From Acidobacteria bacterium 13_2_20CM_2_57_6 (GTDB taxonomy: Bacteria; Acidobacteriota; Terriglobia; Acidiferrales; UBA7541), in the NCBI GenBank assembly GCA_001917435.1, contig MNEA01000151.1:1-64000 (forward strand): DNA of 64,000 bases, in the 5' to 3' direction. Numbering within the stretch: position 1 is the stretch's first letter; each line of letters starts with the position of its first letter. The notes under the pieces are model-generated. The model searched no databases. It was not told the DNA's origin and saw only the letters and a list, made by a program, of their open reading frames with translations. The position numbers and the translations under genes are program-made. Below, piece after piece: positions 46,668 through 63,424 of this stretch.

Positions 46668-47738
46668 TCAAGGTGCCTTCTTGGTTCGGGACGGCATGCG
46701 GTTGCTAAGAAGTTCGATAGCTTGTTCCAGTCGTTGACGCCGCTTCCAGAAATCGCCCCAGAGGTCACCCTTGTCCTTTAGGCGCGCAAACACTGTTTCT
46801 ATGTTCAACGTTTCGGGGCGCAAACTAGGCCGCAATTCGCGGGGCAAAAGGGGAGCGGAAACCGGCGCTTGAGGGAAAGCGCGCACGGAATACGCCGCAG
46901 CCAGTGGCCGGCCGTGGGCATTTTGCTGAACGTCGATCAGCACGCGGCCCGCGGGCCGTTTCGCAACGATGCGTTCGCTGGTCACGAGATTAGCGTGCTC
47001 GGCGGTCACCGTTCGCGCGATAATCTCACCGAAGGTACGCAACTGCTCGTAGGTGTAAATCGGCTCGACCGGCAGGTAGATGTGAATTCCCGTTGCGCCT
47101 GAAGTTTTCAGGAAGCTCGCCAAACGCAATTCTTCCAACTTTTCGTAAAGAGCTCGAGCGATGGTCACGACCGCCGAGAATTCCGTGCCATCCGAGGGAT
47201 CCAAATCAAAAAAGAAGTAGTCGGGATGATCGAGATCGTCATAACGATTGGACCATGGGTTGTGATCGATACAACCGAGGCCCGTCAAGAACAGCAGGGA
47301 AGCGCGGTCATTGGCCGTGGCGTATTGAATAACCTCACCGCGATGTTCGGAATCCACCGGAACCGTCTTGAACCATTCCGGCAAACCTTCGCGCACGTCC
47401 TTCTGAAAAAAAGCTTGCCCTTTGATTCCGTCGGGGTAGCGTCGCAAAACCAAAGCTCGATCGCGTAGAAAAGGCAAGATGAAATCCGCCATGCGGTAGT
47501 AGTAGGCCAGCAGATTCCGTTTCGTGTAGCCGGACTCCGGAAAATACACTTTGTTCAGGTTGCTGAGGCGCAGCCGTTTGCGCAATCCGTAGAACGCGCA
47601 TCCTCGCGGAGCGCGAGGAAGACGGGATGGCGCAGGGAATGCTCCTCCGTCCACCCGCTGAACTTGACCCGCGCAACCAGAGTCGGAGAAACCCACCATG
47701 GCTTTTCGTTGGTTTCGGGCACGGCATCGAAAGGACAA
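46668..47738 (-). CDS. ligD: LigD polymerase (primase-like) domain, C-terminal part of frameshifted ligD
   Basis: LSNLNKVYFPESGYTKRNLLAYYYRMADFILPFLRDRALVLRRYPDGIKGQAFFQKD; DLDPSDGTEFSAVVTIARAL; homologous coding starts near 47612. Confidence 0.82.
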   Translation of the reverse strand: MSFRCRARNQRKAMVGFSDSGCAGQVQRVDGGAFPAPSRLPRAPRGCAFYGLRKRLRLSNLNKVYFPESGYTKRNLLAYYYRMADFILPFLRDRALVLRRYPDGIKGQAFFQKDVREGLPEWFKTVPVDSEHRGEVIQYATANDRASLLFLTGLGCIDHNPWSNRYDDLDHPDYFFFDLDPSDGTEFSAVVTIARALYEKLEELRLASFLKTSGATGIHIYLPVEPIYTYEQLRTFGEIIARTVTAEHANLVTSERIVAKRPAGRVLIDVQQNAHGRPLAAAYSVRAFPQAPVSAPLLPRELRPSLRPETLNIETVFARLKDKGDLWGDFWKRRQRLEQAIELLSNRMPSRTKKAP

Positions 47739-49228
47739 GTGGACGCTGAAAGTTCTTTCAACCTACTGCTCAATTCCTTCAGCTTTTTCGCGTCAAATCC
47801 ACTGCCGACGTGCCCTATGAATCGAAGTGTTTTGCCGTGATACAAGCCCAGCAGCATGGAACCAAAGGGAAGAGCGGACGTGCGAGCCTCTGTCCAGCCA
47901 CCGACCACGGCGTCCACCGTCATGGTAATCTTCAGCTTCACCCAATGCGGGCTGCGATCGGAAACGTACGGGCTGTCGGCTCGCTTTGCGACAATCCCTT
48001 CCAGGCCATTTTGTTCTGCCAGCGCGAACAACTCTTTTCCCTGCTCCAACTGATGGTCCGCATATCGAAATCGTTCGGTCGTGAAAAGCAAGCGTTCGAG
48101 GAGCTGCTTGCGCTCGAGGAGCGGAGCTTCGCGAAGGTCGTATCCGTCGCAGTAAAGAAGATCGAAGGCAAAGTAAACGACGGGAATCTGCGCGACCAGG
48201 TTCTCACTGGGGGCCCGCACGTGCATGCGTTCCTGCAAACGCTCGAAGTTGCTGTGGCCTTGGGCGTCCAGAGCCACGATCTCTCCGTCAAGAATGGCCT
48301 CGCGGGCGGCCAAAGTCTCCGGAAGAGAGGCTAGTTCCGGATAGCGCTGCGCGATGTCAACTCCGTTGCGAGAGCGCAGGGTCAAAGCGCCATTTTCGAT
48401 TCGTGCCAGCGCGCGCACGCCGTCCCATTTGATCTCAAAGAGCCAGTGCGGATCGGAAAAAGGTCGGTCGGCGAGCGTCGCCAGCATGGGTTCCACGCGA
48501 GAGGGCATTGGTCCCTTCCGTGCGCTTTGCACCTCAGCCGCTTGAATTGGGATTGGCTGGCGTTTGGGCGGCAGCTCCTCCTTAATCTCTTCTATCGTGC
48601 GTCCCGTGAGCGCGGAACGGTCGTGCTCGTCGATGTTCCAGGAGGAATCTTCGGCGGCGTCCTTGTGTTTGATCATCAACCATTCGTTGCCTTTTTCGCT
48701 CTGTTTCAGTTTCACCAAAACAAAGCTACCCCACAATTTCTCCCCGTTTAAGCTGAACTTGATTTCTCCCTTTTCCAGTTGCTTCAGTGCGTCGAGATTG
48801 CCCTCCAAGTGAAAAGTCCCGCGGTCCCAGACCATCACCGTTCCCGCGCCGTAATTGCCTTCAGGAATTTTGCCTTCGAAGTTGCCGTAGTCCAGGGGAT
48901 GATCCTCGGTCATCACCGCCAGCCGCTTGTCGGCGTGGCTCTGGGAAGGCCCCTTGGGCACGGCCCACGACTTCAGCGTCCCATCGATGGCCAGCCGGAA
49001 ATCGTAGTGCAGCCGCGTGGCCCGGTGCTTCTGAACCACAAACGTGTCGCCATGCTCGGCCCCAGGGCGCACTTCCAACTGCGGCAGTTTTGGCTTTGGC
49101 AGGCGCGTGCGTTTGGCGGACGGGGAGGGCTTGTCCTGGACCTTGCCGGCGACAGGTTCGGGCGCGCCGGACGGCTCCGGCGTCCGGTCGAACCGTCGTT
49201 TTCGCTTGTATTCTTCCAGCTTCCCCAT
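47555..49228 (-). CDS. ligD: ATP-dependent DNA ligase LigD, phosphoesterase + ligase domains
   Basis: FVVQKHRATRLHYDFRLAIDGTLKSWAVPKGPS (PE); FEIKWDGVRALARIENGALTLRSRNG (ligase KxDGxR); reading frame diverges after FLALREDA. Confidence 0.88.
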   Translation of the reverse strand: MGKLEEYKRKRRFDRTPEPSGAPEPVAGKVQDKPSPSAKRTRLPKPKLPQLEVRPGAEHGDTFVVQKHRATRLHYDFRLAIDGTLKSWAVPKGPSQSHADKRLAVMTEDHPLDYGNFEGKIPEGNYGAGTVMVWDRGTFHLEGNLDALKQLEKGEIKFSLNGEKLWGSFVLVKLKQSEKGNEWLMIKHKDAAEDSSWNIDEHDRSALTGRTIEEIKEELPPKRQPIPIQAAEVQSARKGPMPSRVEPMLATLADRPFSDPHWLFEIKWDGVRALARIENGALTLRSRNGVDIAQRYPELASLPETLAAREAILDGEIVALDAQGHSNFERLQERMHVRAPSENLVAQIPVVYFAFDLLYCDGYDLREAPLLERKQLLERLLFTTERFRYADHQLEQGKELFALAEQNGLEGIVAKRADSPYVSDRSPHWVKLKITMTVDAVVGGWTEARTSALPFGSMLLGLYHGKTLRFIGHVGSGFDAKKLKELSSRLKELSASTCPFDAVPETNEKPWWVSPTLVARVKFSGWTEEHSLRHPVFLALREDARSTDCANGCASAT

Positions 49229-49251
49229 TCGCGCATTCTATCCTACGCCCC

Positions 49252-49278
49252 GGTGGCACAGGCTTCAGCCTGTGGTCC
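49252..49278. repeat. REP-like palindromic element
   Basis: GGTGGCACAGGCTTCAGCCTGTGGTCC; 8-bp perfect stem CACAGGCT-TC-AGCCTGTG. Confidence 0.7.
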
Positions 49279-49288
49279 TCGGCACCAA

Positions 49289-50359
49289 TTATCTCGGGAA
49301 CGCGATGACCTGATACGCCTTAGCGACGTTGCCGATGACGCTGTTGGGGAAGCCCGGATCAAATTTGGCTGCGTATTTTTTCACCAGAAAATCGGACACG
49401 CTCTTCTTCGCCTCGTCGAGCGAAGCTCCTTCCGCGTAGACTGCGGCCGTCCGCTCCATCAAGTCCTGAAAATACTGTTTCCACAGCTCGAACTTTTCTT
49501 TGCCGTGCATCACGTCGCCATGCCCGCCGATGACGGCGTCGAAATCCAGCTTCTCGGCGGCGTCGAGCGTCTTGATCCAGTCATAGGGATAGCTGTCGCC
49601 CATGAAGGGCGTCCAGCCATGCAGCGAGTCGCCGGTGCACAGCACTCTTTCCTTGGGAAGAAATACGAAGATGTCACCGTTGGTGTGGGCTAGCCCGAGC
49701 CAAAGAATCTCCACCGTGCGCGATTTGCGGTGCAGAATCAGGCTGTGATCGAACGTCATCGTCGGCAGAGTCACCTCGATGAGCTTTAGTTCGGCGAAAT
49801 ACGCTTCCGCCTGGCGAAGGTTTTCTTGAATGGCGGTCTTCTGTTCAGCGTTGGAAGCCTTTTCCAGATCGCTTTTCAATCTGGCGATTTCCTGCGGCAT
49901 GCTCACGATTTCGTTTTTGATACGGGGAATCCCAAGCCGCTGAATGTTGGCGCGCGTGGCTTCCGAGGAGATGATCTCGACGCCGGCGGGCCACGAACTG
50001 GGATAGGCTTCATTGCCCTGGTAGTGGTCCCAGTGGAAATGCGTGTTGACGACGTACTTCACTGGCTTGGGCGTGAGCTTCTTGATTTGCTCGATTAGCG
50101 CGCGCGCCGCGGAAGGCTTGGAGTGCGTGTCGACCACGAGCACCCCGTCGTCCAGCAGGATGATCACCGCGTTGCAATTCACTTTGTAGGCGGGCTTCGC
50201 AATGGCCGCATAGATACCGTCCGCCACCGGCTTAATGTCGAACAAATCGTCGACAGCGAGGCACGCCGGGGGAACGAGCAAGAAGCAGATGAAATTAAGG
50301 AGCAAAAAGCACGTGACGGGAAGTAGCAAGAACAAATTGGCTCGCAAGCGCGTCTTCAT
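49289..50359 (-). CDS. MBL-fold metallo-hydrolase, secreted
   Basis: Signal peptide; YVVNTHFHWDHYQGNEAY; VDTHSKPSAARALIEQI; GGHGDVMHGKE. Confidence 0.88.
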   Translation of the reverse strand: MKTRLRANLFLLLPVTCFLLLNFICFLLVPPACLAVDDLFDIKPVADGIYAAIAKPAYKVNCNAVIILLDDGVLVVDTHSKPSAARALIEQIKKLTPKPVKYVVNTHFHWDHYQGNEAYPSSWPAGVEIISSEATRANIQRLGIPRIKNEIVSMPQEIARLKSDLEKASNAEQKTAIQENLRQAEAYFAELKLIEVTLPTMTFDHSLILHRKSRTVEILWLGLAHTNGDIFVFLPKERVLCTGDSLHGWTPFMGDSYPYDWIKTLDAAEKLDFDAVIGGHGDVMHGKEKFELWKQYFQDLMERTAAVYAEGASLDEAKKSVSDFLVKKYAAKFDPGFPNSVIGNVAKAYQVIAFPR

Positions 50360-50478
50360 GAGCGCGTCCCCCTGTCCGCAAGGCAATGAGCGACGAATGC
50401 GCCGCGAGCCTACTACAACGGACGAGTCAATGCCAAGTGGCCCCTTGATCGCGTGGCCCCTTGATCGCGCTTTTGTTT

Positions 50479-50505
50479 GGTGGCACAGGCTTTAGCCCTG
50501 TGCTC
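50479..50505. repeat. REP-like palindromic element
   Basis: GGTGGCACAGGCTTTAGCCCTGTGCTC; same core as 49252-49278. Confidence 0.65.
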
Positions 50506-50728
50506 TTGCTTTGGGCAGGCAGTTGTAGTGGCAGTCTGCAGAACCGTTCTCGCCTTGGCATACTGCCCCCTATCCCTCGCAACGCCTAACAGGAGGTCAT
50601 CGTTCCTTCACGGCTATACCATTCCTCTTTCGCCGCTTTTTCGATGGCGCCCTTGCTTCTTGATTGGCGCGCGGCTAATCTAAAACCTCATGCGCTATCC
50701 CTAGCCTGTGTACCAAAGGAGTGTCGAC

Positions 50729-51601
50729 ATGGCCACGACCGTTTGGAAAGGCCACCTCACGTTTGGCTTAATTTCGATGCCCGTCCGCATGACTACGGCG
50801 GCCCGCGGTGAACGAATCAGCTTCAACCAGCTCCACAAAGAGTGCCATTCGCGCCTCAAGCAGCCCTTGTTTTGTCCCGTTTGCAACCGCAACGTGGAAC
50901 GGTCCGAAATTGTAAAGGGCTACGAATACGAAAAGGATCAGTACGTGCTCTTCAGCGAAGAAGAGCTCGACAAAATCGAGCCTCCCTCGGCGCGCGTTAT
51001 GGAAATCCTGGAGTTCGTGAAGCTGGATGAAATGGATCCGCTGTATTTCGATGCCTCTTATTACGTCGCCCCCGAGGACGCCGGCGTCAAGGCTTATCAA
51101 CTGCTCATGACAGCCATGCAAGAGTCAGGCTACGGGGCCATCGCAAAGCTCACCATGCATCAGCGTGAACACATCGTGATTGTCCGGCCGGGGACCAAGG
51201 GCATGACACTGCACACGATGTTCTATTCCAATGAGATACGCGCTGCCGAATCCGTTCCGACCGATAAGATTGAAGTGAAAGAGCAAGAGAGAAAGCTCGC
51301 GCGACAACTCATTGAGAGTCTTGCCGCTCCTTTCGAGCCGCAAAAATACCGCGACGAGTATCAGGAAAATGTGCGCGCGATGATCGCTGCAAAACTCAAG
51401 GGCCAGGAAGTAACCGAAGTGGCCCAGCCGCACATGGCTCCCGTGATCGATCTGATGGAAGCCCTCAAGAAGAGCCTCGCGGAAAAACAGGCTCCGCCTG
51501 CTGCGGCGGCGGGACCGGTGCCGGTGGGAAAAAAGCCGCCCGCGCGAGCGGTGGAAGCCATTGCAACAGTGCAAAAGAAGGGAAAGAAGGTCGCCGGTTA
51601 A
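50729..51601 (+). CDS. ku: Non-homologous end joining protein Ku
   Basis: MATTVWKGHLTFGLISMPVRMTTAARGERISFNQLHKECHSRLKQPLFCPVCNRNVERSEIVKGYEYEKDQYVLF. Confidence 0.95.
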   Translation: MATTVWKGHLTFGLISMPVRMTTAARGERISFNQLHKECHSRLKQPLFCPVCNRNVERSEIVKGYEYEKDQYVLFSEEELDKIEPPSARVMEILEFVKLDEMDPLYFDASYYVAPEDAGVKAYQLLMTAMQESGYGAIAKLTMHQREHIVIVRPGTKGMTLHTMFYSNEIRAAESVPTDKIEVKEQERKLARQLIESLAAPFEPQKYRDEYQENVRAMIAAKLKGQEVTEVAQPHMAPVIDLMEALKKSLAEKQAPPAAAAGPVPVGKKPPARAVEAIATVQKKGKKVAG

Positions 51602-52958: not shown

Positions 52959-54008
52959 GTGATGCACCGCCTCAACGAAATATCGTGCCGTTTCATTGGG
53001 AGCAGGGGTTTTTGCAAGGCAAATGATACTTTTAACTATTCAAACTTGATAGGGAGCGCGGCAAAATCGCTTTCTGCCGCCACGAACCAAATGACAGATG
53101 TTCGTTCGCGCATCACGACTTGGAGCAAGGCAGGTTTCATTCTGCTTTCCTCTCGCCATTTTCTTTGCGTGGGAACTGCCTCAGTATTCTTTGCTGCTTG
53201 CGCGTTAGTATTACCGGCCAGCGCGCAGAATACGAAATCTCCGGCCAGAAAAAAACAGACGGGACATTCTGCTGCTGAGGATGGCCGGAAAACGTTTGAA
53301 TCCGTTTGTGCCACATGCCATGGCTTGGATAGGCGCGGTAGCGAACGCGGGCCCAATATTGCCACACGTGCCGAAGTCCAACAGTTGTCCGACGAGGAAA
53401 CGCTGCACGTCCTGCAGACAGGAAAACCGGTGGCGGGGATGCCGGCGTTCGCTGTGCTGGGCGCACCGAAGATCAACGCGCTGATGGCCTACTTGCGAGT
53501 TCTACAGGGTGGGGGCGAAGCTTTTCCTACTCTGGGAGACGCGCAACGCGGCAAATTGCTTTTCTTTGGAAAGGCGCGTTGCGCGGACTGTCATATGATC
53601 AGCGGCTTAGGCGGATTTGTCGGAGCCGATCTGTCTTCCTACGGTTCGAACAGTTCCGCGAAGGAAATTCGAACTGCGATCACCGATCCCAACAAGGATC
53701 TGGAACCGCGGGAAAGAACTATGCTCGTGACCACGCGCGAAGGTCGCCAATTCACGGGTGTCGCGCGCAACGAAGATAATTTTTCACTGCAGTTGCTGTC
53801 GCTGGGAGGAACTTTTTATCTGTTCTCGAAGAAGGACCTCGAGCATTTCGAATATCTGCCAAAATCCATTATGCCATCAGACTATGGCTCCGTGCTGAGC
53901 GCCACAGAACTGGATGACCTGGTGAGCTATCTCGTCCGCGCCGCTCGCGCGGCAAAGAAAGAGCCAGCAGCCAGAACGAAATCGGATATCGAGGAAGAGG
54001 AGAACTGA
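52959..54008 (+). CDS. Di-heme c-type cytochrome
   Basis: CATCH and CADCH heme motifs; ITDPNKDLEPRERTMLVTTREGRQFTGVARNEDNFSLQLLSLGGTFYLFSKKDL. True start may be downstream of 52959. Confidence 0.85.
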   Translation: MMHRLNEISCRFIGSRGFCKANDTFNYSNLIGSAAKSLSAATNQMTDVRSRITTWSKAGFILLSSRHFLCVGTASVFFAACALVLPASAQNTKSPARKKQTGHSAAEDGRKTFESVCATCHGLDRRGSERGPNIATRAEVQQLSDEETLHVLQTGKPVAGMPAFAVLGAPKINALMAYLRVLQGGGEAFPTLGDAQRGKLLFFGKARCADCHMISGLGGFVGADLSSYGSNSSAKEIRTAITDPNKDLEPRERTMLVTTREGRQFTGVARNEDNFSLQLLSLGGTFYLFSKKDLEHFEYLPKSIMPSDYGSVLSATELDDLVSYLVRAARAAKKEPAARTKSDIEEEEN

Positions 54009-54069
54009 CCACTCGCCGGGGAATTGGCGTTTTTCTTTTCGCGCCGTCCGAGATTCAAAATGCAAGGGA

Positions 54070-55305
54070 TCAGCGAATAGGCCGGTTGCGCACAGCAATG
54101 AGGGAAACCTGCTCCAGGTCTGGGTAATGGCCTTCTTCATCGGGTTTTCGTTCGGCGGGCTGAATCTGTTGAACCGTCGTCTGTGCCGGCAGGGCCCCCT
54201 TGAAGTATTTCCCGTACACTTTTTCAAATACCGCCGATTCCGATAAATCGTCCAGGTAAACCGTCGTCGAGACAACTTGATCGAACTTCATGTCCGCCTC
54301 CTCCAAATTGTCGAGGAGGTTTCGCATCGTCTGGCGAACCTGATCCGCAGTGGCCGGGGCGTACACGCCGCCATTGGGGCCGGGAATGAATCCACTCTTC
54401 GCGGAACAGTACAGTGTGTCGCCAGCGAAAACACACGGACTCGCGGTTGGACTTGGGGGCATATTCTTCGGGCGTATTGCCCGCCGCTGGCTTAGATCGC
54501 GCACGGCAACTCCCGTGTATGCAATATGCACGCCTTCAGGCAGAGCCGACACTTCTATCGTGGCCCGCCCCGGCGTATTCCCGAATTCGAAGCGCTTGGC
54601 GTAAAGCTGATTCATGGTGCGCATCGGGATTTCGCGGGTGAGATAAGGATTCACGAAGACCATGTTGCTCAATTTGAGTCCCGCTGCCTCCAACACAGCT
54701 TTCATGCCGTCAAGCGCAAGATCCACTTGAGCGGCGGGATCCTGAGGAACTCTTCCGTTGGATGGGTCAGCGCCCGGCATCGTGGAAACGAATAACCGGT
54801 CGTGAGTGAGCATTCCTGGGGAAAAAGCATTGGTTGGTTTAAATGTGGGCGGAGAGACCGGCTGCTTTCCTTTGAGATCGCGCACGGCGACGGCATTGAT
54901 TTGCACGGCATCGTCCTGGGGTAACCGGGCAATGCCGAGCACCGCGCGGGCAGGAGGCTCCTTTGGAAAATAAGCGGCAAAGGCTTTGTTCAACTCAGCG
55001 TATTGATTCGTGTCTTTGAGATAGACCTGCACGTAAACGACATGATCCATGGTGAGTCCCGCGGCTAAGACGACGCCTTTTATATTGTCGAGGGACTGCC
55101 GGACTTGATCGTCAAAGTTTTCTGGGACGCTGCGGTCAGCGCGGAAAGGCCCCTGGCCAGAGATGTAGACGTAGTCGCCCGCGTCGACTCCGGGGGAGCC
55201 GAGCGCTGCCGCGAGTGTATTGTGCGGCTCGACGGCTCGAATCTGCGCTTGCCCGCTCGACGCGAACGACAGCACCGAGGCGGCGGACAGAAATAAAAGC
55301 TTCAT
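54070..55305 (-). CDS. Secreted protein with three tandem RidA-like domains
   Basis: Signal MKLLFLSAASVLSFASSGQAQ; three successive RidA-type units (GDYVYISGQGPF..., HDRLFVSTMPGAD..., GDTLYCSAKSGFI...). Confidence 0.85.
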   Translation of the reverse strand: MKLLFLSAASVLSFASSGQAQIRAVEPHNTLAAALGSPGVDAGDYVYISGQGPFRADRSVPENFDDQVRQSLDNIKGVVLAAGLTMDHVVYVQVYLKDTNQYAELNKAFAAYFPKEPPARAVLGIARLPQDDAVQINAVAVRDLKGKQPVSPPTFKPTNAFSPGMLTHDRLFVSTMPGADPSNGRVPQDPAAQVDLALDGMKAVLEAAGLKLSNMVFVNPYLTREIPMRTMNQLYAKRFEFGNTPGRATIEVSALPEGVHIAYTGVAVRDLSQRRAIRPKNMPPSPTASPCVFAGDTLYCSAKSGFIPGPNGGVYAPATADQVRQTMRNLLDNLEEADMKFDQVVSTTVYLDDLSESAVFEKVYGKYFKGALPAQTTVQQIQPAERKPDEEGHYPDLEQVSLIAVRNRPIR

Positions 55306-56621
55306 GCCACATTTCCCTTGCGTGCCGAAGCTAGAATCGCCCGCAGTCGCTGTCCCACAATCATTTCTTCCTCCGGCTGGATGGTCATGGAAACCACCTC
55401 GAGGTGATTCTGCTCTTTGAGTTCCTTCGGATTCGCCTTCGGCTTATCGGCGCCTTCCTGCACTGCGGAAACCATGCTGGGATTATCAATGCTAAGCACT
55501 TCGATAACCGGATCGCCGTCGTGCAGTTTGCGCACGCATTCACTCACAGTAAAGCCCCAGGCCTGTTGGTCCCACGAAACGCGCAAGGTTGGATAGCGAT
55601 TCCCGTCGTCGGGAATGTAGATCTGAGTCTGCACACCTGGGACGGTCTCGACCAACTTGGCGATGCGATCCACCCGCGCGTGCCATTCGTCGTAGAGCTT
55701 TTTGGAATCCATCTTGAGCCAGGTTTCGATGGCCGTCAGGCAGCCGATGACTTCTTCTTTGCCGACTTTCATGGGACGGCAGACCGCACCCTCATAAGGG
55801 CAGGAATTGCGCAGGGCGGCCTCGATCAGATCCTTGCGACCCAGCAGCACGCCGCTGCATTGCGGCCCCCGTAGGCCCTTGCCTCCGGAAAAAGTGTAGA
55901 GATCGAGTTTCATTCTTGCGTAGAGCTTGATGTTGTCAATGGGTGGAATGCCTGCGGCATCGTCCAGAAGGAGTGGTACGTTGTGCTCTTTTGCGATGGC
56001 CGCCTCGCGCGCGAGCTTGTCGCCCAGATCCGTGGTGTAAATCATCGCCGTGTTGCTAGTGATCGCGCCGGCAATTTCTTCCGGCTTCTCGACGAGGATC
56101 AGTTTGGCTCCCGTTAGCCGGATGGCGTTGTCGAACGCGCTGCGGCCTCCGACCATCACGACTTCGTGCTTCAGTCCCGTGGTGTCCGGGAGTTGCCATA
56201 TCTTTTGCGGATCGCTGCCTGCCATGCATGCCGCGGTTGCCGCGGCCATGGCACCCGCAGCACCGGACGTGATTAATCCAGATTCGGCGCCGGTCAATTC
56301 CGCCAAGCGGCGTCCCACGGCGTGGTGCAATTCGACCATGTTCACAAAATGACGGCTCGCTTCGGCCTGAGCGTCTTGCACTTCTGGAAATTGCAGCGAT
56401 CCGCTCAAATAGGTCCATGTTCCGCGGCAATTGATGACCGTCTTCACCCCCAAGCGACTGTACACATTTTCTTTTGTGTCGTACCCAATCGCAGCAGCGG
56501 ATTTTTCGTACAGCTGGTGAGCCGCAACTTGGGCTAACAGCGGCGAAGCGGCCAGCATTTTCATAAATCCGCGGCGATTGGATTCCTGAGTGAAAGGCAT
56601 GGATTTCCTCCCGATATTCAA
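55302..56621 (-). CDS. SelA-like PLP-dependent enzyme (aminotransferase-fold), Tat-targeted
   Basis: NRRGFMKMLAASPLLAQVAA signal; LGVKTVINCRGTWTYLSGSLQFPEV; LLLDDAAGIPP; DLYTFSGGKGLRGPQCSGVLLGRKDLIEA (PLP Lys). Confidence 0.85.
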   Translation of the reverse strand: MNIGRKSMPFTQESNRRGFMKMLAASPLLAQVAAHQLYEKSAAAIGYDTKENVYSRLGVKTVINCRGTWTYLSGSLQFPEVQDAQAEASRHFVNMVELHHAVGRRLAELTGAESGLITSGAAGAMAAATAACMAGSDPQKIWQLPDTTGLKHEVVMVGGRSAFDNAIRLTGAKLILVEKPEEIAGAITSNTAMIYTTDLGDKLAREAAIAKEHNVPLLLDDAAGIPPIDNIKLYARMKLDLYTFSGGKGLRGPQCSGVLLGRKDLIEAALRNSCPYEGAVCRPMKVGKEEVIGCLTAIETWLKMDSKKLYDEWHARVDRIAKLVETVPGVQTQIYIPDDGNRYPTLRVSWDQQAWGFTVSECVRKLHDGDPVIEVLSIDNPSMVSAVQEGADKPKANPKELKEQNHLEVVSMTIQPEEEMIVGQRLRAILASARKGNVA

Positions 56622-56625
56622 GCGT

Positions 56626-57357
56626 CTACTGAACGAAAATTAAGGTTCCAAAGTGTTCGGGAACGTGGTTGGGGTCCCGGTTGACTACACAAGTCGGCTG
56701 CCAGCACAGGAAGTGGCGCACGGGATCCGCGCCGAGTCCGTCGATGCGGTAAAGGTTGGCCCGCCATTTCGTCGCGGGCTTCACCGGTTTTTCACTAACC
56801 GATTTCAGTGGCACACGGGCCGCTGCGTACCACACGTGGTTATTTTCGTCGATGCGCCCCTGTCGCTGCCAGCCGGAATCCCAATTCGCGTCATAGGAGT
56901 CTTTGTTGAGATCGATGGCCAAATCGACCCAGTCGCCCGTTGGCGCGATCTCAAATTCGCGATAGTGCTTGATGTCGGTCCAATCGTCGCCCAGAAAGAA
57001 CTCGACCACGTCGCGGTCCCATAGTTTGAGGCGATCTTTGCTGTTATCCGCCGGCAGCCAGAGGTTCAGATGGTTGTAGGGAGAAATAAAAAGCAGATAC
57101 AGATCAGAGTCGGTCCAAAACCCGCGCACTTCGGTCTTGAGTTTGGGATAGTCGATCTGTTGCGTGCAATCTTTCTCGATCCAAGTGTACGCCGCGTGCG
57201 ACCATGTTTCCGAGTTCGGATTAGTATTCAGGTCTGGCGCCTTCGCGACATGCGGAATGGAAAAACTGGCCGTTGGGTTTGCAACCTCACACACCTCCCC
57301 GGCAAACGCGAGAGTCAGCGCTAGAAGCATCAATGACAGGCTCTTGGTGAATATCAT
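56626..57357 (-). CDS. Carbohydrate-binding family 9-like (DOMON/CBM9) secreted protein
   Basis: Signal peptide; TEVRGFWTDSDLYLLFISPYNHLNLWLPADN...LWDRDVVEFFLGDDWTDIKHYREFEIAPTGDWVDLAID. Confidence 0.82.
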   Translation of the reverse strand: MIFTKSLSLMLLALTLAFAGEVCEVANPTASFSIPHVAKAPDLNTNPNSETWSHAAYTWIEKDCTQQIDYPKLKTEVRGFWTDSDLYLLFISPYNHLNLWLPADNSKDRLKLWDRDVVEFFLGDDWTDIKHYREFEIAPTGDWVDLAIDLNKDSYDANWDSGWQRQGRIDENNHVWYAAARVPLKSVSEKPVKPATKWRANLYRIDGLGADPVRHFLCWQPTCVVNRDPNHVPEHFGTLIFVQ

Positions 57358-57360
57358 CGG

Positions 57361-58995
57361 TTATGGGCGAGGCGCGTTTCTTAACTCCGGCGCAATTTCG
57401 TACGCCTTGTCGAATTCTGCCTCCGCCTCCGCCTCCTTTCCTTCCTGATGAAGTGCCAATGCAAGGTTGTAATGTGCTTCCGCATAGCGCGGCTTAAGGC
57501 GCACAGCCTCGATAAACTCCGCCCGCGCCGTACGAAGGTCGCCCGCTTGCAACAGTACCAATCCAAGGTTGTTGTGAGCTTCCGCGAAATTCGGATCGCG
57601 GCGTACCACTTCCCGGAAGACGTTGGCGGCGCCCGCGGTATCGTTCTTCTGGCTGAGGACCAATCCCAGTTGTATCCGGGCGTCAGTGTACTTGGGTTCG
57701 AGGCTGATGGCTTCATTTAATTCGTGAACCGCTTCATCCACATGCGCGGATTGCGCGAGCGCGAGGCCGAGATTGTAATGCGCTTCAGCTAGGTCGGGAT
57801 CGGACATCACCGCCCGCTGGAGCTCCTCGAGAGCGCGTGCGCGATCGTCCTGGCGCCAGTAGAGCAGCCCGAGACTCGAGTGGGCTTGCGCATAGTCCGG
57901 CTTCAGCTCAAGAGATTTCTCATAGGCCGCCAGGGCACGCGGAGCGTCCCCCTTGCGCTCCCAAGTTACTCCCAGATAGTAATGGCCGGTGGGGAGTTCG
58001 GGACTTTGCTCGACAGATTTTTGAAAGAGCGCCAGGGCATCGTCGAGCTTCTGCTGCTTCAGCGCTTCAACGCCTTGGAGGATAAGATATTTCGCTTGAG
58101 CCAGGCGCGCTCGGAACTCTTGCAAAGCGCTCAAATCATTGAGCTCCCTTTGTGCGGCGCCGGTTTCGCCTTGAGCATGCAACGCGATACCCAGGTTATA
58201 GTGCGCCTGTTCGAAATCAGGCTTCAGCTCGATCGCCTGGCGAAACGCCGCAATTGCGCCGGTCGTGTCGCCGCCCGCTTTAAGCTCCTTGCCGAGGTTC
58301 AGTTGCGCCTCCGGATCTTTGGGATCGATTTCGACCGCTCTGCGGAACTCAGCGAGTGCGCCAGCGTGATCGCCCTTCCGGCGCAGCGTCACGCCCAGCA
58401 GTGAGTGTGCTGGCGCCAACTTGGGATTCAGCCGCAGTGCCCGGCGAAATTCGCCCGCCGCGCCTTCCAGATTGCCGAGCTGTCCTTCGGCCAACCCCAG
58501 TTCGAGATGCAGTTCGGCGGAAGGCTTCGACTGCAGGGCCCGCCGTAACTCACCTTCGGCAGCCGATGGATTGCTCTGCTGCAAATAAATGTGCGCCAGC
58601 AGGCGGTGTGCTCCGGCGTTTGCGAAATCAAGATCGACCGCCGTGCGCAGTTCCTTCAAGGCGGCGGCCTGATCGTTTAGGTCGTACCAGGTCGCGCCTA
58701 ACGCGTAGTGCGCATCGGCCCACTTCGGTTTGAGACGCAGCGTGGTTTCGAACTCTTCAACGGCCTGCTTCGCATCGCCTTTATATTTCAGCGTGAGCGC
58801 CAGATTGTAATGCGTATCCGGGTCGTTGGGTTCCAGGTCTAGCGCTTTATGATAACTCGCAATAGCCTGGTCCCAGGATTTGTTGCGCGATAGCTCGATA
58901 GCTCGTTGACGGTAACTCTGAGCCGTTTGCGCAAGTGTTGGCGTTGAAAACGGCAGACTCAGAACTAGCAGAAACACCATTAGCCTGTAGCTCAC
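57361..58995 (-). CDS. TPR-repeat protein, secreted
   Basis: Many 34-aa TPR units (e.g. AIASYHKALDLEPNDPDTHYNLALTLKYKGD). Confidence 0.9.
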   Translation of the reverse strand: MSYRLMVFLLVLSLPFSTPTLAQTAQSYRQRAIELSRNKSWDQAIASYHKALDLEPNDPDTHYNLALTLKYKGDAKQAVEEFETTLRLKPKWADAHYALGATWYDLNDQAAALKELRTAVDLDFANAGAHRLLAHIYLQQSNPSAAEGELRRALQSKPSAELHLELGLAEGQLGNLEGAAGEFRRALRLNPKLAPAHSLLGVTLRRKGDHAGALAEFRRAVEIDPKDPEAQLNLGKELKAGGDTTGAIAAFRQAIELKPDFEQAHYNLGIALHAQGETGAAQRELNDLSALQEFRARLAQAKYLILQGVEALKQQKLDDALALFQKSVEQSPELPTGHYYLGVTWERKGDAPRALAAYEKSLELKPDYAQAHSSLGLLYWRQDDRARALEELQRAVMSDPDLAEAHYNLGLALAQSAHVDEAVHELNEAISLEPKYTDARIQLGLVLSQKNDTAGAANVFREVVRRDPNFAEAHNNLGLVLLQAGDLRTARAEFIEAVRLKPRYAEAHYNLALALHQEGKEAEAEAEFDKAYEIAPELRNAPRP

Positions 58996-59114: not shown

Positions 59115-62100
59115 CTACCAGGTGAACTTCGCACTGATTTGCCCTTCGCGCGAACCGCTGCCGGTGTCTCCGAATGACCTGGTACTGGTTACCGTGCCGA
59201 ACGTGTTCATGTTGTTGTAATTGCCGTGCGGGTTACTAAAATTCGCGTGGTTGAATATATTGAAGAATTCCGCGCGAATTTCGAACCCCATGGCCTCTCT
59301 GATCATAGTCCTCTTAGAGATCCCGAAGTCTGTGACGTTGATTCCAGGGCCGTGGAAGAACTGGCGGTTTGCGTTGCCAAATCCGCCGTTTGGACCACTG
59401 GCAAACGCGTCCGGTAGGAAGAATGTATTCGGCCCATTAGGACCCGGGTTACGCGGATTTTGGGTCACGACCTTCCCCACAAGGTCGGGTACATCGGTGT
59501 TCCCACCGCCAACCAACGAGTAATCCCCGCCCTGTCTCAGCGACACGGGCAAACCACCCGAATAGCGCGTAACGCCGTTAAGGGCCCAGCCTTGCGTCAA
59601 GCGCTTCGGCAGTTTGCCGATTGCCCGGTCGAAGGGAACCGCCCAGATGTAACTCACCACGAAGTTATGGGTGATATCGAACGCCGAAAGCGAGCGGCTG
59701 AGCCGGGGGTCCAAGAAATTCACCCACTGGCCAAAGCCGGAAGAATTGTCCATCGCCTTAGCGAACGTGTACGCCGCTAGGAAGGTAAAATCCGCGGCCT
59801 TGTGTTCCACGGTTATCTGACCTGCGTTGTAGCTCGAATTGGCGATGTTGACTGTGAAGCTGTTGTTCTGGCTGAAGGCAGGTCCCAAATAGTCACGTGT
59901 ACCAGGTATGCAAGTACTGCCAGCAGGCGTCCCAAGGGGACACGGGGTGGTGAACGCCTTGGCGGGAGCGGCTACGCCAGGAGGCAAAGTGTACGTCTGG
60001 TTCTCGCCATCGCGTCCACATGTAGGCGTGGCGCCCAGTTGGTTAAGTTGCAGGCAAAGCGCGAAGTCACCGGGATTGGCGTCGTATTGCGAGATCAGCT
60101 TATGTCCTTGTGTTCCTACGTACGCCAGGGTCAGAACCGTCGATTTACTCAGCTCCCTCTGAATGGACAAATTGTAATGCTCCGCATAAGGCGGCCGATT
60201 GTGAATGTCGTAGCCCGGTGAAAACGAGATCGGCAAATAGATCGAATAGTCTAGCGTCTTATTAGCCGGGCTTCCCGGCTTCGGGAACACAAATGGGAAT
60301 CGCTGCCCCTCTGACATTCCGTTGGCGACTTCCTGGAACGGCTGGTCGAAGTTGACCGGGTTAGGCGAAACCCAATACAGCCCAAAAGGAGCATCTCCGA
60401 CCTCATAGAACAAGTTCAAGTCCTCGATCGACGTGTAGTAGACGCCGTAGGACGCTCGGATGCTGGATTTGCCAGGGCCACCGAAGATCTTGCCCGCCAT
60501 CCCATCTTTAAAGCCGGGCGAATAAGCGATGCCCAGCCTCGGAGAGAAGTTGTTATACCGGGTGGGAGCGAGTGTGCTCGGAATTCCCGGATCGCCCGGA
60601 ACCACCCATCCCAGCGGCGCAGTCGGGAACTGTGTGGACTGCAAGCCAGGCACGATGGTCTCAATCTTGCCCTGCGTGTCATACCACGGCATGCTTACTT
60701 CCCAACGCACACCAAGATTGAGGGTGAGGTTCGGCCTCACTTTGAAAGTGTCTTCAGCGAAAGCCCCGCCATAACGCGACCGTGAATCCAGGAACTGCTG
60801 GCTGCACTGGTTATAGTTTTGCGCTGCGCCGAGTAGGTAATCGGCGAAATCGTTGCCGGTTATGCTGCCGTCGAACGTGAAGTCTCCGTTCGGTGCGCAC
60901 GTATTGCGCTCATTGATCTGCAGGTAGCGGAACTCACCCCCAAACTTGATCGTGTGTCGGCCTCGCGCTTTCGAGAAAGTATCCGAGACGTGCCAGGTGT
61001 TGTTCGGCTGAAACGTTGACAGCGTATTCACGCCGAGGGAGAAGTTGTTGAAGTATATCGGTGGCACGGTCTGTGGAAATCCCGCCGGTCCCGAGGGTAT
61101 GATGCCGAGAGTTCCTGGGCCAGTAACGAAACCGAGATCCGAGAGTTTTGCGAAGCTGCTACTTGGCTCGTCCGTATGCGTAGCTGTCCGGAAGAAACTC
61201 AAACGAAATTGATTCACAGCGGTTGCACCATAATTTTTGTTGTTATTGAGGACGAACTGCTGTGCACGGCTTACCGTAGCACTGGAAAAACCTGGCACAC
61301 TGGCATCCAGAGCGTTAAAATTGTTGGAGTCGTCGAAGTGATAATAAAACGACCAGTCGCCGGTCATCTTGTTAATGAAGTCTATTCGTTGTCCATACTT
61401 GTTATCCCCAATCCTGTTCCTTTGGTTGGCGTCTGCGAAATTTCCATTTCCATCGCCAATCGGGATGTAGGGCAGAATCTTGGTCGCGGGTAAGGAAAAC
61501 GCGCTCGTCGGGATCGTAGCGTTGCTAAACACGCACTGTGTAGTGCTGGGGCAGGGATCTAGGCGAAAGCCACTCGGCTGACTGGCGTCCGGCACTTTGA
61601 TGGCCCCGTAAGGTTCCCCGTTGAAGACACAGGAAGGATCTCCCGGACATACGTAGCCCAGTCGACTGGAAAGCGTATCCGCCCAATTCAATCCGCAGGA
61701 AGCACCCCCGGGGCATGCCTGGCTGTTCACGAGTAACGGACTGCCGCTCGAATCCGCAAAGTCTGCTGCGGTGAAAGTGCCGCCTCGCTGGAGGGTCGTC
61801 GGCACCGGCACCGCACCCGTACTGGCTCCCCTGACCTCGCGAGTGCCCTGATAGTCCGTGAACCAGAAAAGCTTGTTTTTCCAGAACGGGCCTCCCACGG
61901 CGTAGCCGAACTGGTTACGCCGCAATTCCGCCTTAGTCGGGTCGAAGAAACCTCGCGCGTCGAATTTGTCGTTGCGCAAGAATTCGAACGCAGATCCGTG
62001 AAGGCCGTTGGTGCCGGACTTAGTAATCGTGTTCATCACCGCGCCGCTGAATTTTCCATACTCCGCATCAAAGCTATTGGTGATCAGCCGGAATTCCTCC

Positions 62101-62780
62101 ACGGAATCCAGATTGGGGATCAACCCGGCGCCCAGGTTGCGTCCTTCGCTCACGTCGCCGCCGTTCACCAGAAACGCGTTGGCGGTCTCCCGCTGCCCAT
62201 TTACCGACAGGTTGCCCGCATTTGGCGAGTATCCCCCGGAAACCGACCGGTCCTGCTGTATGGAGCCGGATGTTACCGGCACCACTCCCGCTTGCAGGCC
62301 CAGAAGGTCCAGGTAGCTGCGGCCATTCAACGGCAGAGAAAGCATTTTTTTCGATTCGATCACATCACCTAGCTGCGTGTTTTCTGTCTGTACTTGCACC
62401 GCGTTGGCGGAGATTTCCACCTTTTCGGTCACGCTGCCAACGTCGAGCGTGACGTCAACGTGCAATTGGTCGTTCACTTTCAAGTCGACATCCGTCGTCG
62501 AGAACGTTTGGAATCCCGGGGCAGTGGCGGTGAGTTTGTAAGTCCCTGCCGGCAACGCCAGGATTCGGTAAGTCCCGTCCGCAGCAGACACGGTTTCCCT
62601 AGTAAGATTTGTTTGCACATTGGTGGCGACAATTCGCGCGCCCGCAACCACAGCTTGCGTACGGTCGTGCACCACGCCTAGAATCGATCCGGTCACGTCC
62701 GCCCGCAAAACATTTGGACCGACAAGCATTGTTAGAACGATCAAAACAGCAAAAACTGCACGGTTAAAACGATTTTGCAT
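59115..62780 (-). CDS. TonB-dependent receptor with N-terminal carboxypeptidase-regulatory-like domain (Oar-like)
   Basis: SILGVVHDRTQAVVAGARIVATNVQTNLTRETVSAADGTYRILALPAGTYKLTATAPGFQ; plug SLPLNGRSYLDLLGLQAG; C-terminal beta-barrel FNIFNHANFSNPHG. Confidence 0.92.
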   Translation of the reverse strand: MQNRFNRAVFAVLIVLTMLVGPNVLRADVTGSILGVVHDRTQAVVAGARIVATNVQTNLTRETVSAADGTYRILALPAGTYKLTATAPGFQTFSTTDVDLKVNDQLHVDVTLDVGSVTEKVEISANAVQVQTENTQLGDVIESKKMLSLPLNGRSYLDLLGLQAGVVPVTSGSIQQDRSVSGGYSPNAGNLSVNGQRETANAFLVNGGDVSEGRNLGAGLIPNLDSVEEFRLITNSFDAEYGKFSGAVMNTITKSGTNGLHGSAFEFLRNDKFDARGFFDPTKAELRRNQFGYAVGGPFWKNKLFWFTDYQGTREVRGASTGAVPVPTTLQRGGTFTAADFADSSGSPLLVNSQACPGGASCGLNWADTLSSRLGYVCPGDPSCVFNGEPYGAIKVPDASQPSGFRLDPCPSTTQCVFSNATIPTSAFSLPATKILPYIPIGDGNGNFADANQRNRIGDNKYGQRIDFINKMTGDWSFYYHFDDSNNFNALDASVPGFSSATVSRAQQFVLNNNKNYGATAVNQFRLSFFRTATHTDEPSSSFAKLSDLGFVTGPGTLGIIPSGPAGFPQTVPPIYFNNFSLGVNTLSTFQPNNTWHVSDTFSKARGRHTIKFGGEFRYLQINERNTCAPNGDFTFDGSITGNDFADYLLGAAQNYNQCSQQFLDSRSRYGGAFAEDTFKVRPNLTLNLGVRWEVSMPWYDTQGKIETIVPGLQSTQFPTAPLGWVVPGDPGIPSTLAPTRYNNFSPRLGIAYSPGFKDGMAGKIFGGPGKSSIRASYGVYYTSIEDLNLFYEVGDAPFGLYWVSPNPVNFDQPFQEVANGMSEGQRFPFVFPKPGSPANKTLDYSIYLPISFSPGYDIHNRPPYAEHYNLSIQRELSKSTVLTLAYVGTQGHKLISQYDANPGDFALCLQLNQLGATPTCGRDGENQTYTLPPGVAAPAKAFTTPCPLGTPAGSTCIPGTRDYLGPAFSQNNSFTVNIANSSYNAGQITVEHKAADFTFLAAYTFAKAMDNSSGFGQWVNFLDPRLSRSLSAFDITHNFVVSYIWAVPFDRAIGKLPKRLTQGWALNGVTRYSGGLPVSLRQGGDYSLVGGGNTDVPDLVGKVVTQNPRNPGPNGPNTFFLPDAFASGPNGGFGNANRQFFHGPGINVTDFGISKRTMIREAMGFEIRAEFFNIFNHANFSNPHGNYNNMNTFGTVTSTRSFGDTGSGSREGQISAKFTW

Positions 62781-63424
62781 CAGGCACCCCCAAATGGGCG
62801 TAGCATGGCACGAAATACCTGAAGCAATCAAGTCTTCAATGAGCCATCCGGAGTCACTCGCGTTGACCGCGAGTGGAAGAGTGGATCGCTGATATTTATA
62901 CAGTAGTTAGAATCTTGGAGGCGGGGGGAGTCGGAATTCTAGCCTCGCTGATAACTCGTAACTTTAACTTAACTTATTGATTTAATTAAACGCGAAAAAC
63001 TATGAAAACAGCGCATTTGCCGAAGTGAGGTACACGGCGGGTACACGGAGATTTTAGCGAGGCGGCCATTGGTGATCATCGATGGCGATGTGATTTCCCC
63101 GAACGGGACTTCCGTGATAGGTCTTTGTTAAGAGAAAGGAGCTCTCCTGACGCGCTTTGGAGGGGCGCGCGAAAAGTTTTTTCAAGTTCTTCCGCTCGCG
63201 GTTTTTGCCTCTCGGCGATTGTTCCTGCTCGATGCAGAACCAGACATCCATTTGCTGTCTCAGACACGAAGGCCTCCACAGAAGATTGAGTTAGTGATCT
63301 CCTGCCAGTCTCGAAACATCTGGAGAGAGGCATCGGGAGCTTGCGCTCCCTCGCCCAGTCCCGTTCCGGCGAGACCTGGCAGACCGCATGCCGAATAAGC
63401 TGGATTGCTTTTGCCGCTGCCGTT

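Follow-up and report, generated by a model that had tools for sequence, protein, structure and literature searches.

A predicted exported couple of a PLP enzyme and a triple RidA protein in Acidobacteriota as a candidate step of amino-sugar-acid breakdown outside the cytoplasm

Background

The biology of RidA proteins rests on metabolite damage in the cytoplasm. What could a RidA protein do on the other side of the membrane? This question is raised by a stretch of 64,000 nucleotides (the window) on contig MNEA01000151.1 of Acidobacteria bacterium 13_2_20CM_2_57_6, a 4.46-Mb draft assembly which is 81.6% complete. Here a gene for a pyridoxal 5'-phosphate (PLP) enzyme with a twin-arginine N-terminus is followed by a gene for a signal-bearing protein with three RidA domains (3x-RidA). 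We propose, as a fairly probable reading, that these two proteins carry out the deamination in an extracytoplasmic, non-phosphorylated pathway which breaks down 2-amino-2-deoxy sugar acids of the D-glucosaminate type. The observations behind it are export-type N-termini, conserved adjacency, retained catalytic residues and the gene neighbourhood.

A PLP enzyme and a 3x-RidA protein with export-type N-termini

The couple comprises the following features:

54070..55305, minus strand: 3x-RidA protein of 411 amino acids with a Sec-type signal sequence at amino acids 1-20 (Pfam: PF01042; AlphaFold2)
55302..56600, minus strand: DgaE/SelA-like fold-type I PLP enzyme of 432 amino acids with a twin-arginine N-terminus (TIGR01437, phmmer, Foldseek)
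55302..55305, minus strand: ATGA stop/start overlap which joins the PLP and 3x-RidA genes (sequence)

The overlap is found as originally predicted. The start of the PLP gene has moved from TTG 56621 to ATG 56600, which is probably the correct one because it is preceded by the Shine-Dalgarno sequence GGGAGG. With this start the twin-arginine translocation (Tat) motif NRRGFMKM is retained, near the new N-terminus.

Export was judged by eye and with a regular expression. The 3x-RidA protein begins with the Sec-type N-terminus MKLLFLSAASVLSFASSGQA, followed by QIRA, and the PLP enzyme with a twin-arginine motif and then a hydrophobic region, NRRGFMKMLAASPLLA. These signals are found throughout both families. 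Of 127 unique PLP homologues, 121 carry the RR motif, and the RR pair is nearly invariant (90% or more) in the homologue alignments. Likewise, 61 of 64 unique 3x-RidAs have a hydrophobic stretch and an AxA-like site at the N-terminus. The original prediction that both partners are exported, with a twin-arginine signal on the SelA-like protein, gains support from these family-wide signals.

Among RidAs that are paired with a PLP gene, the type of signal follows the number of RidA domains. Twenty-three of 27 single RidAs carry the RR pair, and the four without it resemble pieces of interrupted or truncated 3x-RidAs in sequence and position. Conversely, 43 of 49 triple RidAs have no RR pair, and by eye several of the remaining six pairs lie outside a plausible signal. 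The split gives a Fisher p-value of 3e-10 on sequences that are not independent; all our statistics treat related genomes as independent. The pattern suggests that RidAs linked to a PLP gene are exported through Tat when single and through Sec when triple.

The pairing is also found outside the Acidobacteriota. In Chondrinema (Bacteroidota) a SusC/SusD locus holds a Tat-RidA, a Tat-PLP enzyme, an amidohydrolase/deacetylase and an RraA protein. A RidA gene also lies near the PLP gene in Halorussus, Thalassospira, Rhizobium, Aminobacter and Paracoccus; the PLP enzymes of these genera have no export signal.

Conservation of the pairing

Homologues were collected from one genome per species, which gave 353 related stretches; the best 80 were kept, nearly all of them labelled acidobacterial. 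In 47 of these 80 loci a RidA open reading frame (ORF) lies within 300 bp of the PLP gene on the same strand, so the conserved adjacency sought in this neighbourhood survey was found. It is not trivial and far exceeds chance, because the whole 4.46-Mb assembly has just six sites with RidA domains. In 41 of the 80 loci this nearby RidA is a 3x-RidA, which is downstream of the PLP gene in 36 and upstream in 5, so gene order varies while the association persists. In 297 Acidobacteriota genomes, the PLP enzyme is present in nine of the 14 genomes with a 3x-RidA against 1.6 expected (p=1.2e-6, uncorrected for relatedness). Lack of an export signal, fewer than two RidA domains and lack of conserved adjacency had been named as grounds for giving up the original prediction; all three were looked for, and none was found.

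Three kinds of locus deserve mention here. Locus L067 is labelled betaproteobacterial, a label which may be wrong because its gene order matches that of gp2 acidobacteria. In the metagenome-assembled loci L075, L096 and L126 the 3x-RidA frame beside the PLP gene is split into two overlapping ORFs, by a frameshift or an assembly error. In Acidobacteriaceae (L020, L022-L026 and L168 10803-12401) a longer Tat-type PLP paralogue of about 535 amino acids flanks a single RidA, often with a standard-length PLP enzyme on the other side (PLP-RidA-PLP); its extra length had no Pfam match in the one protein tested.

Active site of the PLP enzyme

The family models TIGR01437 (161.3 bits, cut-off 385.3) and NF047797 (139.4 bits, cut-off 600) both match the PLP enzyme below their cut-offs. 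Its phmmer matches are Cap15 (8t7j, recognised as Cap15 through the fold search; 1.7e-33) and the ammonia-lyase DGL (7lc0; 1.3e-26), with 30% and 28% identity. The structure model (predicted local distance difference test score, pLDDT, 87; predicted template modelling score, pTM, 0.84) aligns in Foldseek with a query-normalised template modelling score (TMq) of 0.79 to Cap15 and 0.78 to DGL.

In DGL numbering, the catalytic Lys, which sits in SGGKGLRGPQ, is retained in 126 of 127 homologues and the carboxylate-binding Arg226 is R or K in 119 of 127; the window protein retains both. The cluster Arg301/332/346, which is proposed to bind the 6-phosphate in DGL and is present in Cap15 as well, is replaced by T/L/M in the window protein (a second alignment has S, not L, at position 332). 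Of the pair His162/His163, strictly conserved in the DGL family, His163 is missing in all 127 Acidobacteriota homologues, and a His at position 162 is found in one. In DGL, His163 protonates the enamine ahead of its release, and the H163A variant stays active and releases a 293-nm species which was read as the free enamine (PMC9529869). The same authors proposed that the His may serve to avoid a toxic product, and mentioned RidA (PMC9529869). From the missing phosphate cluster and the missing His163, an unphosphorylated substrate and the release of an enamine are predicted for the window enzyme, and a released enamine would be a job for RidA. An unphosphorylated substrate would also agree with a location outside the cytoplasm.

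Domains and fold of the 3x-RidA protein

The Pfam search finds three stretches of PF01042 in the protein (E=4.9e-58), the first domain spanning amino acids 37-141, and TIGR00004 matches over its cut-off with 197.5 bits. This is the predicted signal-peptide protein with three RidA domains. Its AlphaFold2 single-chain model has a pLDDT of 89.9 and a pTM of 0.90. Single domains of the model match RidA with a target-normalised score (TMt) of up to 0.94 and 27-38% identity. The best whole-chain matches are the chorismatases 5ag3, 4bps and 5a3k (TMq 0.52-0.57, identity 11-13%). Both the model and the whole-chain match are consistent with the predicted covalent mimic of the RidA trimer.

The residues equivalent to Arg105 of E. 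coli RidA, on which imine hydrolysis depends, are R120 in domain 1, R247 in domain 2 and Q375 in domain 3, so the window protein has at most two canonical RidA sites. Across the 64 3x-RidAs this Arg is kept in 61 first, 64 second and 44 third domains. The equivalents of Glu120 in the window protein are Q, A and Q. In a tree of RidA domains, the first, second and third domains each cluster by kind (recall 0.88-0.97; node support 1.0, 0.52 and 0.45), which suggests that the 3x-RidAs stem from one old triplication. The 3x-RidA probably acts as an enamine/imine deaminase.

Neighbouring genes and a second couple

The couple is the end of a minus-strand run which leads from a TonB-dependent-receptor-like gene through a tetratricopeptide repeat (TPR) gene and a CBM9-like gene to the PLP enzyme and the 3x-RidA, and which faces a convergent c-type cytochrome gene:

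56626..57357, minus strand: exported CBM9-like protein, 25 nt upstream of the PLP gene (Pfam: PF16011, 21.6 bits, cut-off 25)
57361..58995, minus strand: exported TPR protein, a member of the gene run (Pfam: PF13414 and others; position conserved in relatives)
59115..62831, minus strand: TonB-dependent-receptor-like outer-membrane protein with an N-terminal carboxypeptidase-regulatory-like domain (ORF, annotated by eye)
52959..54008, plus strand: two-domain c-type cytochrome, convergent with the RidA gene (Pfam: PF13442, 6.9e-17; TIGR02603 over cut-off)
54014..54029, plus strand: hairpin and T run which resemble a terminator, between the RidA and cytochrome genes (by consensus match only)

The CBM9-like gene holds the equivalent position in gp2 relatives, and homologues of the cytochrome adjoin a quinoprotein dehydrogenase gene in relatives. 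Taken as a whole, promoter and terminator scans did no better on the real sequence than on shuffled sequence.

Neighbours were counted in 27 RidA-containing loci of 15 kb or more. The most prevalent are a quinoprotein dehydrogenase (23 loci), a TonB receptor (20), DUF4380 (20) and a cytochrome c (17), followed by SMP-30/gluconolactonase (14), cupin (13), RraA (13) and NagB-like proteins (6). RraA/HMG-aldolase-like proteins have an N-terminal signal-like segment, for example at L142 6608-7393 and L070 12504-13289; an exported pyruvate-type aldolase of this kind would let 2-keto-3-deoxygluconate (KDG) be cleaved outside the cell. The quinoprotein dehydrogenase at L142 7686-9365 scores 546.6 bits against TIGR04528, 'acido-empty-quinoprotein group A' (cut-off 650), and passes TIGR03075 for pyrroloquinoline quinone (PQQ) alcohol dehydrogenases. 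PqqE is present in the genome, over its cut-off, and the label 'empty' may not apply to this protein.

A second PLP enzyme (PLPb), 41% identical to the window's (PLPa), is encoded on contig C65 of the same genome, where the gene for a single RidA comes before it. Twin-arginine N-termini are found in both of these proteins (NWNRRTFLG and STRRGFAAR). The order on C65 is cytochrome c, RraA-like aldolase, quinoprotein dehydrogenase, Tat-RidA, Tat-PLP, major facilitator superfamily (MFS) carrier, KDG-kinase-like protein and 2-keto-3-deoxy-6-phosphogluconate (KDPG) aldolase. The KDPG aldolase matches its family over the cut-off. Below their cut-offs are the best families of the MFS carrier (D-galactonate transporter type) and of the PfkB kinase (fusions of 2-keto-4-hydroxyglutarate (KHG)/KDPG aldolase and sugar kinase, and KDG kinases). 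The order from dehydrogenase to aldolase recurs in genomes G317 and G322.

The two couples, separate in the window's genome, are merged in the sister genome G304, whose RidA is 93% identical. Its cluster reads MFS, PLPb, RidA1, quinoprotein, RraA, cytochrome c, lactonase, RidA3, PLPa, CBM9, TPR and receptor. In G317 the merged cluster, with PLP/3x-RidA and receptor, extends into KDG kinase and KDPG aldolase. Within the genus, PLPb is also present in 13 of the 15 genomes with the PLPa/3x-RidA module, and five genomes have PLPb alone (p=2.5e-4, uncorrected for relatedness). Because of this distribution the PLPa/3x-RidA module of the window looks like an add-on to a PLPb pathway.

A probable non-homologous end joining pair, read by eye from translations, also adjoins the cluster (47555-51601), with a DNA ligase D-like ORF on the minus strand and a Ku-like ORF of 297 amino acids on the plus strand. 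Between them lies an exported metallo-beta-lactamase-fold protein (49289-50386).

A proposed route outside the cytoplasm

The original prediction had the pair process an amino-sugar or amino-acid derivative outside the cytoplasm and quench its enamine product. The sugar-acid oxidation and KDG genes nearby back the amino-sugar-acid part; we infer the substrate and the direction of flow from these neighbours, as we do each reaction and the departure of the enamine from the enzyme. In the proposed route an amino sugar or its oligomer would enter the periplasm through a TonB-dependent receptor and be oxidised at C1 by a quinoprotein dehydrogenase together with a cytochrome c, after which an SMP-30-like lactonase would open the lactone. 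The Tat-exported DgaE-like enzyme, which by virtue of Tat export would arrive pre-folded and PLP-loaded, would then eliminate the C3 hydroxyl by beta-elimination and release an enamine. The Sec-exported 3x-RidA pseudo-trimer would hydrolyse the enamine/imine to KDG and ammonia. KDG could be imported by the MFS carrier and pass through KDG kinase to KDPG aldolase, or alternatively be cleaved by the exported RraA-like aldolase.

More tentatively, and with rather less confidence than we place in the role of the pair, we suggest that Acidobacteriota and at least one Bacteroidota species may have an amino-sugar-acid branch of the Entner-Doudoroff pathway outside the cytoplasm. There, a Tat-exported PLP lyase without a proton donor on the enzyme would release a toxic enamine into the periplasm, and an exported RidA would destroy it, so that neither the enamine nor ammonia would reach the PLP enzymes of the cytoplasm. 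Single RidAs would have to trimerise before Tat export, a need which the triple fusion would lift, permitting Sec.

Several observations weigh against the proposed route of the pair. The Tat model TIGR01409 is weak on the window PLP protein (11 bits, cut-off 16.7), and export is inferred by eye and regular expression. The catalytic Arg is lost from the third domain of the window 3x-RidA (Q375). The reaction of the PLP enzyme is not fixed by homology, given 28% and 30% identity and 161 against 385 bits, and its fold is as near to the O2-dependent Cap15 as to DGL. That the quinoprotein uses PQQ is uncertain, since its best NCBIfam match, below the cut-off, is named 'acido-empty-quinoprotein'. 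Within the genus, KDG kinase and KDPG aldolase were found next to the PLP cluster in no more than three genomes (G000, on contig C65, G317 and G322), which rules them out as a universal part of the cluster. The alphaproteobacterial cytoplasmic relatives in Rhizobium, Aminobacter, Paracoccus and Thalassospira keep HH and still have a RidA nearby, so the link between His163 loss and RidA is not strict and the loss is ruled out as a strict predictor of RidA partnership. Lastly, no RidA was seen in the DNA fetched for 29 of the 80 loci, some of it short. When the 12 complete genome sets behind 14 RidA-less loci were searched, 11 turned out to encode a 3x-RidA elsewhere; the proteins inspected mostly share 50-62% identity with the window's, and the majority carry a signal-like segment at the N-terminus. 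The idea that RidA-less PLP loci mean no exported RidA at all was thereby ruled out.

Alternative explanations

An unlikely alternative, though the best placed of those considered, is that the PLP enzyme is a Cap15-like O2-dependent oxidase or monooxygenase-decarboxylase of an exported 2-amino acid or amino-sugar acid, and that the 3x-RidA hydrolyses the resulting imine. Cap15 is the best match in structure and sequence, there is no proton donor on the enzyme at the His163 position of DGL, and the Tat-exported periplasmic PvdN uses O2 as well. Cap15 itself is a PLP/O2 enzyme (PMC7497351, PMC11794154), and RidA proteins can hydrolyse imines made by oxidases (PMC4433059). However, DGL is equally close in fold, Arg301/332/346 are common to Cap15 and DGL and missing in the window enzyme, and the sugar-acid and KDG genes suit a beta-elimination to KDG, not a decarboxylating oxidation.

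The same neighbours speak against an exported dehydratase of ordinary (D-)amino acids, for example D-serine or D-threonine, whose 2-aminoacrylate or 2-aminocrotonate the 3x-RidA would quench, and we regard this as quite improbable. The quinoprotein dehydrogenase, lactonase, KDG kinase, KDPG aldolase and NagB-like proteins would be useless for serine or threonine breakdown, even though RidA is best known alongside serine/threonine dehydratases (PMC4433059) and the glucosaminate deaminase OngC also acts on D-Ser and D-Thr (PMC9537276).

It is more doubtful still that the 3x-RidA is a ligand-binding protein or has some other activity, like the similarly built chorismatases, instead of being an imine deaminase. 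The whole-chain chorismatase matches, the two canonical Arg sites with Q375 in the third domain, and the Q, A and Q at the Glu120 positions would fit such a role. Nevertheless, identity is only 11-13% to chorismatases as opposed to 27-38% between single domains and RidA, the Arg105-equivalent is kept in nearly all first and second domains, and elsewhere the PLP partner pairs with canonical single Tat-RidAs. That the couple is cytoplasmic or anchored on the inner face of the membrane, with N-termini that are not working signals, is very improbable: the low TIGR01409 score and the judgement by eye and regular expression would allow it, but even divergent homologues almost always keep the RR pair, 61 of 64 3x-RidAs have the hydrophobic stretch with AxA, the conserved quinoprotein and cytochrome c are of periplasmic type, and the truly cytoplasmic relatives in Halorussus, Thalassospira and Rhizobium lack such N-termini.

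If the proposed extracytoplasmic route is correct, the source of the enamine and its detoxification both move outside the membrane. The split between single Tat-RidAs and triple Sec-RidAs would then hint at why some 3x-RidAs exist, as if fusion had solved a problem of export and assembly. Uncultured soil Acidobacteriota would have a testable route to use amino sugars without phosphorylation, and the unexplained need for the RidA protein OngD in growth on glucosaminate would become testable.

Comparison with known systems

A precedent for a Tat-exported PLP enzyme is PvdN of Pseudomonas, which is periplasmic and uses O2. It belongs to the unrelated pyoverdine pathway, however, and we know of no RidA partner for it, nor of any other extracytoplasmic RidA system.

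Cap15 (PDB: 8T7J) shares fold and family with the window enzyme, with a slightly better E-value than DGL, but it is an O2-/PLP-dependent monooxygenase-decarboxylase of antibiotic biosynthesis and has the Arg cluster in common with DGL, not with the window enzyme. DGL (PMC9529869) is likewise a SelA-like enzyme of fold-type I in which the catalytic Lys and Arg226 correspond, whereas the window enzyme is exported, has 28% identity, lacks the phosphate Arg cluster and His162/His163, and has a RidA partner. Unlike the window pair, a dga-type operon of C. difficile (locus L230, on plasmid pZ1322HCD0102-2) has no RidA. It comprises a phosphotransferase system (PTS), an amidohydrolase, DgaE, a KDGP aldolase and a sugar kinase, and matches the phosphorylated pathway. 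The chorismatases (FkbO/Hyg5 type; PDB: 5AG3, 4BPS, 5A3K) have a single-chain YjgF-like fold which matches the whole 3x-RidA model, at 11-13% identity and with another reaction.

The ong pathway of Pseudoalteromonas prydzensis (OngB-OngC-OngD-KdgK) uses a PLP enzyme to turn glucosaminate into KDG, followed by KDG kinase, and growth by this pathway requires the RidA protein OngD, whose role is unexplained (PMC9537276). It resembles the proposed route in the non-phosphorylated conversion of glucosaminate to KDG by a PLP enzyme with RidA. In contrast to that route it is cytoplasmic, OngC is of fold-type III and unrelated to the window enzyme, and OngD has one RidA domain only. A further precedent comes from acetic acid bacteria, which convert glucosamine, mannosamine and galactosamine to the aminonates by oxidation (PMC9171043).

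Tandem RidA domains of the EF_0115 type were proposed as a covalently linked trimer and named 3x-RidA (Niehaus et al. 2015, PMC4433059), which rules out the triple fusion as a novelty in itself. Both that protein and the window's have three tandem RidA domains, but the window 3x-RidA has a signal sequence and a Tat-exported PLP partner, and the available part of that paper mentions neither export nor a DgaE-like partner. In our literature search, which covered few subscription papers, neither an exported RidA nor an exported DgaE-like enzyme nor a Tat/Sec split was found to have been described. As far as this search reaches, the export of the couple, the surrounding pathway and the pattern of single Tat-RidAs and triple Sec-RidAs are new.

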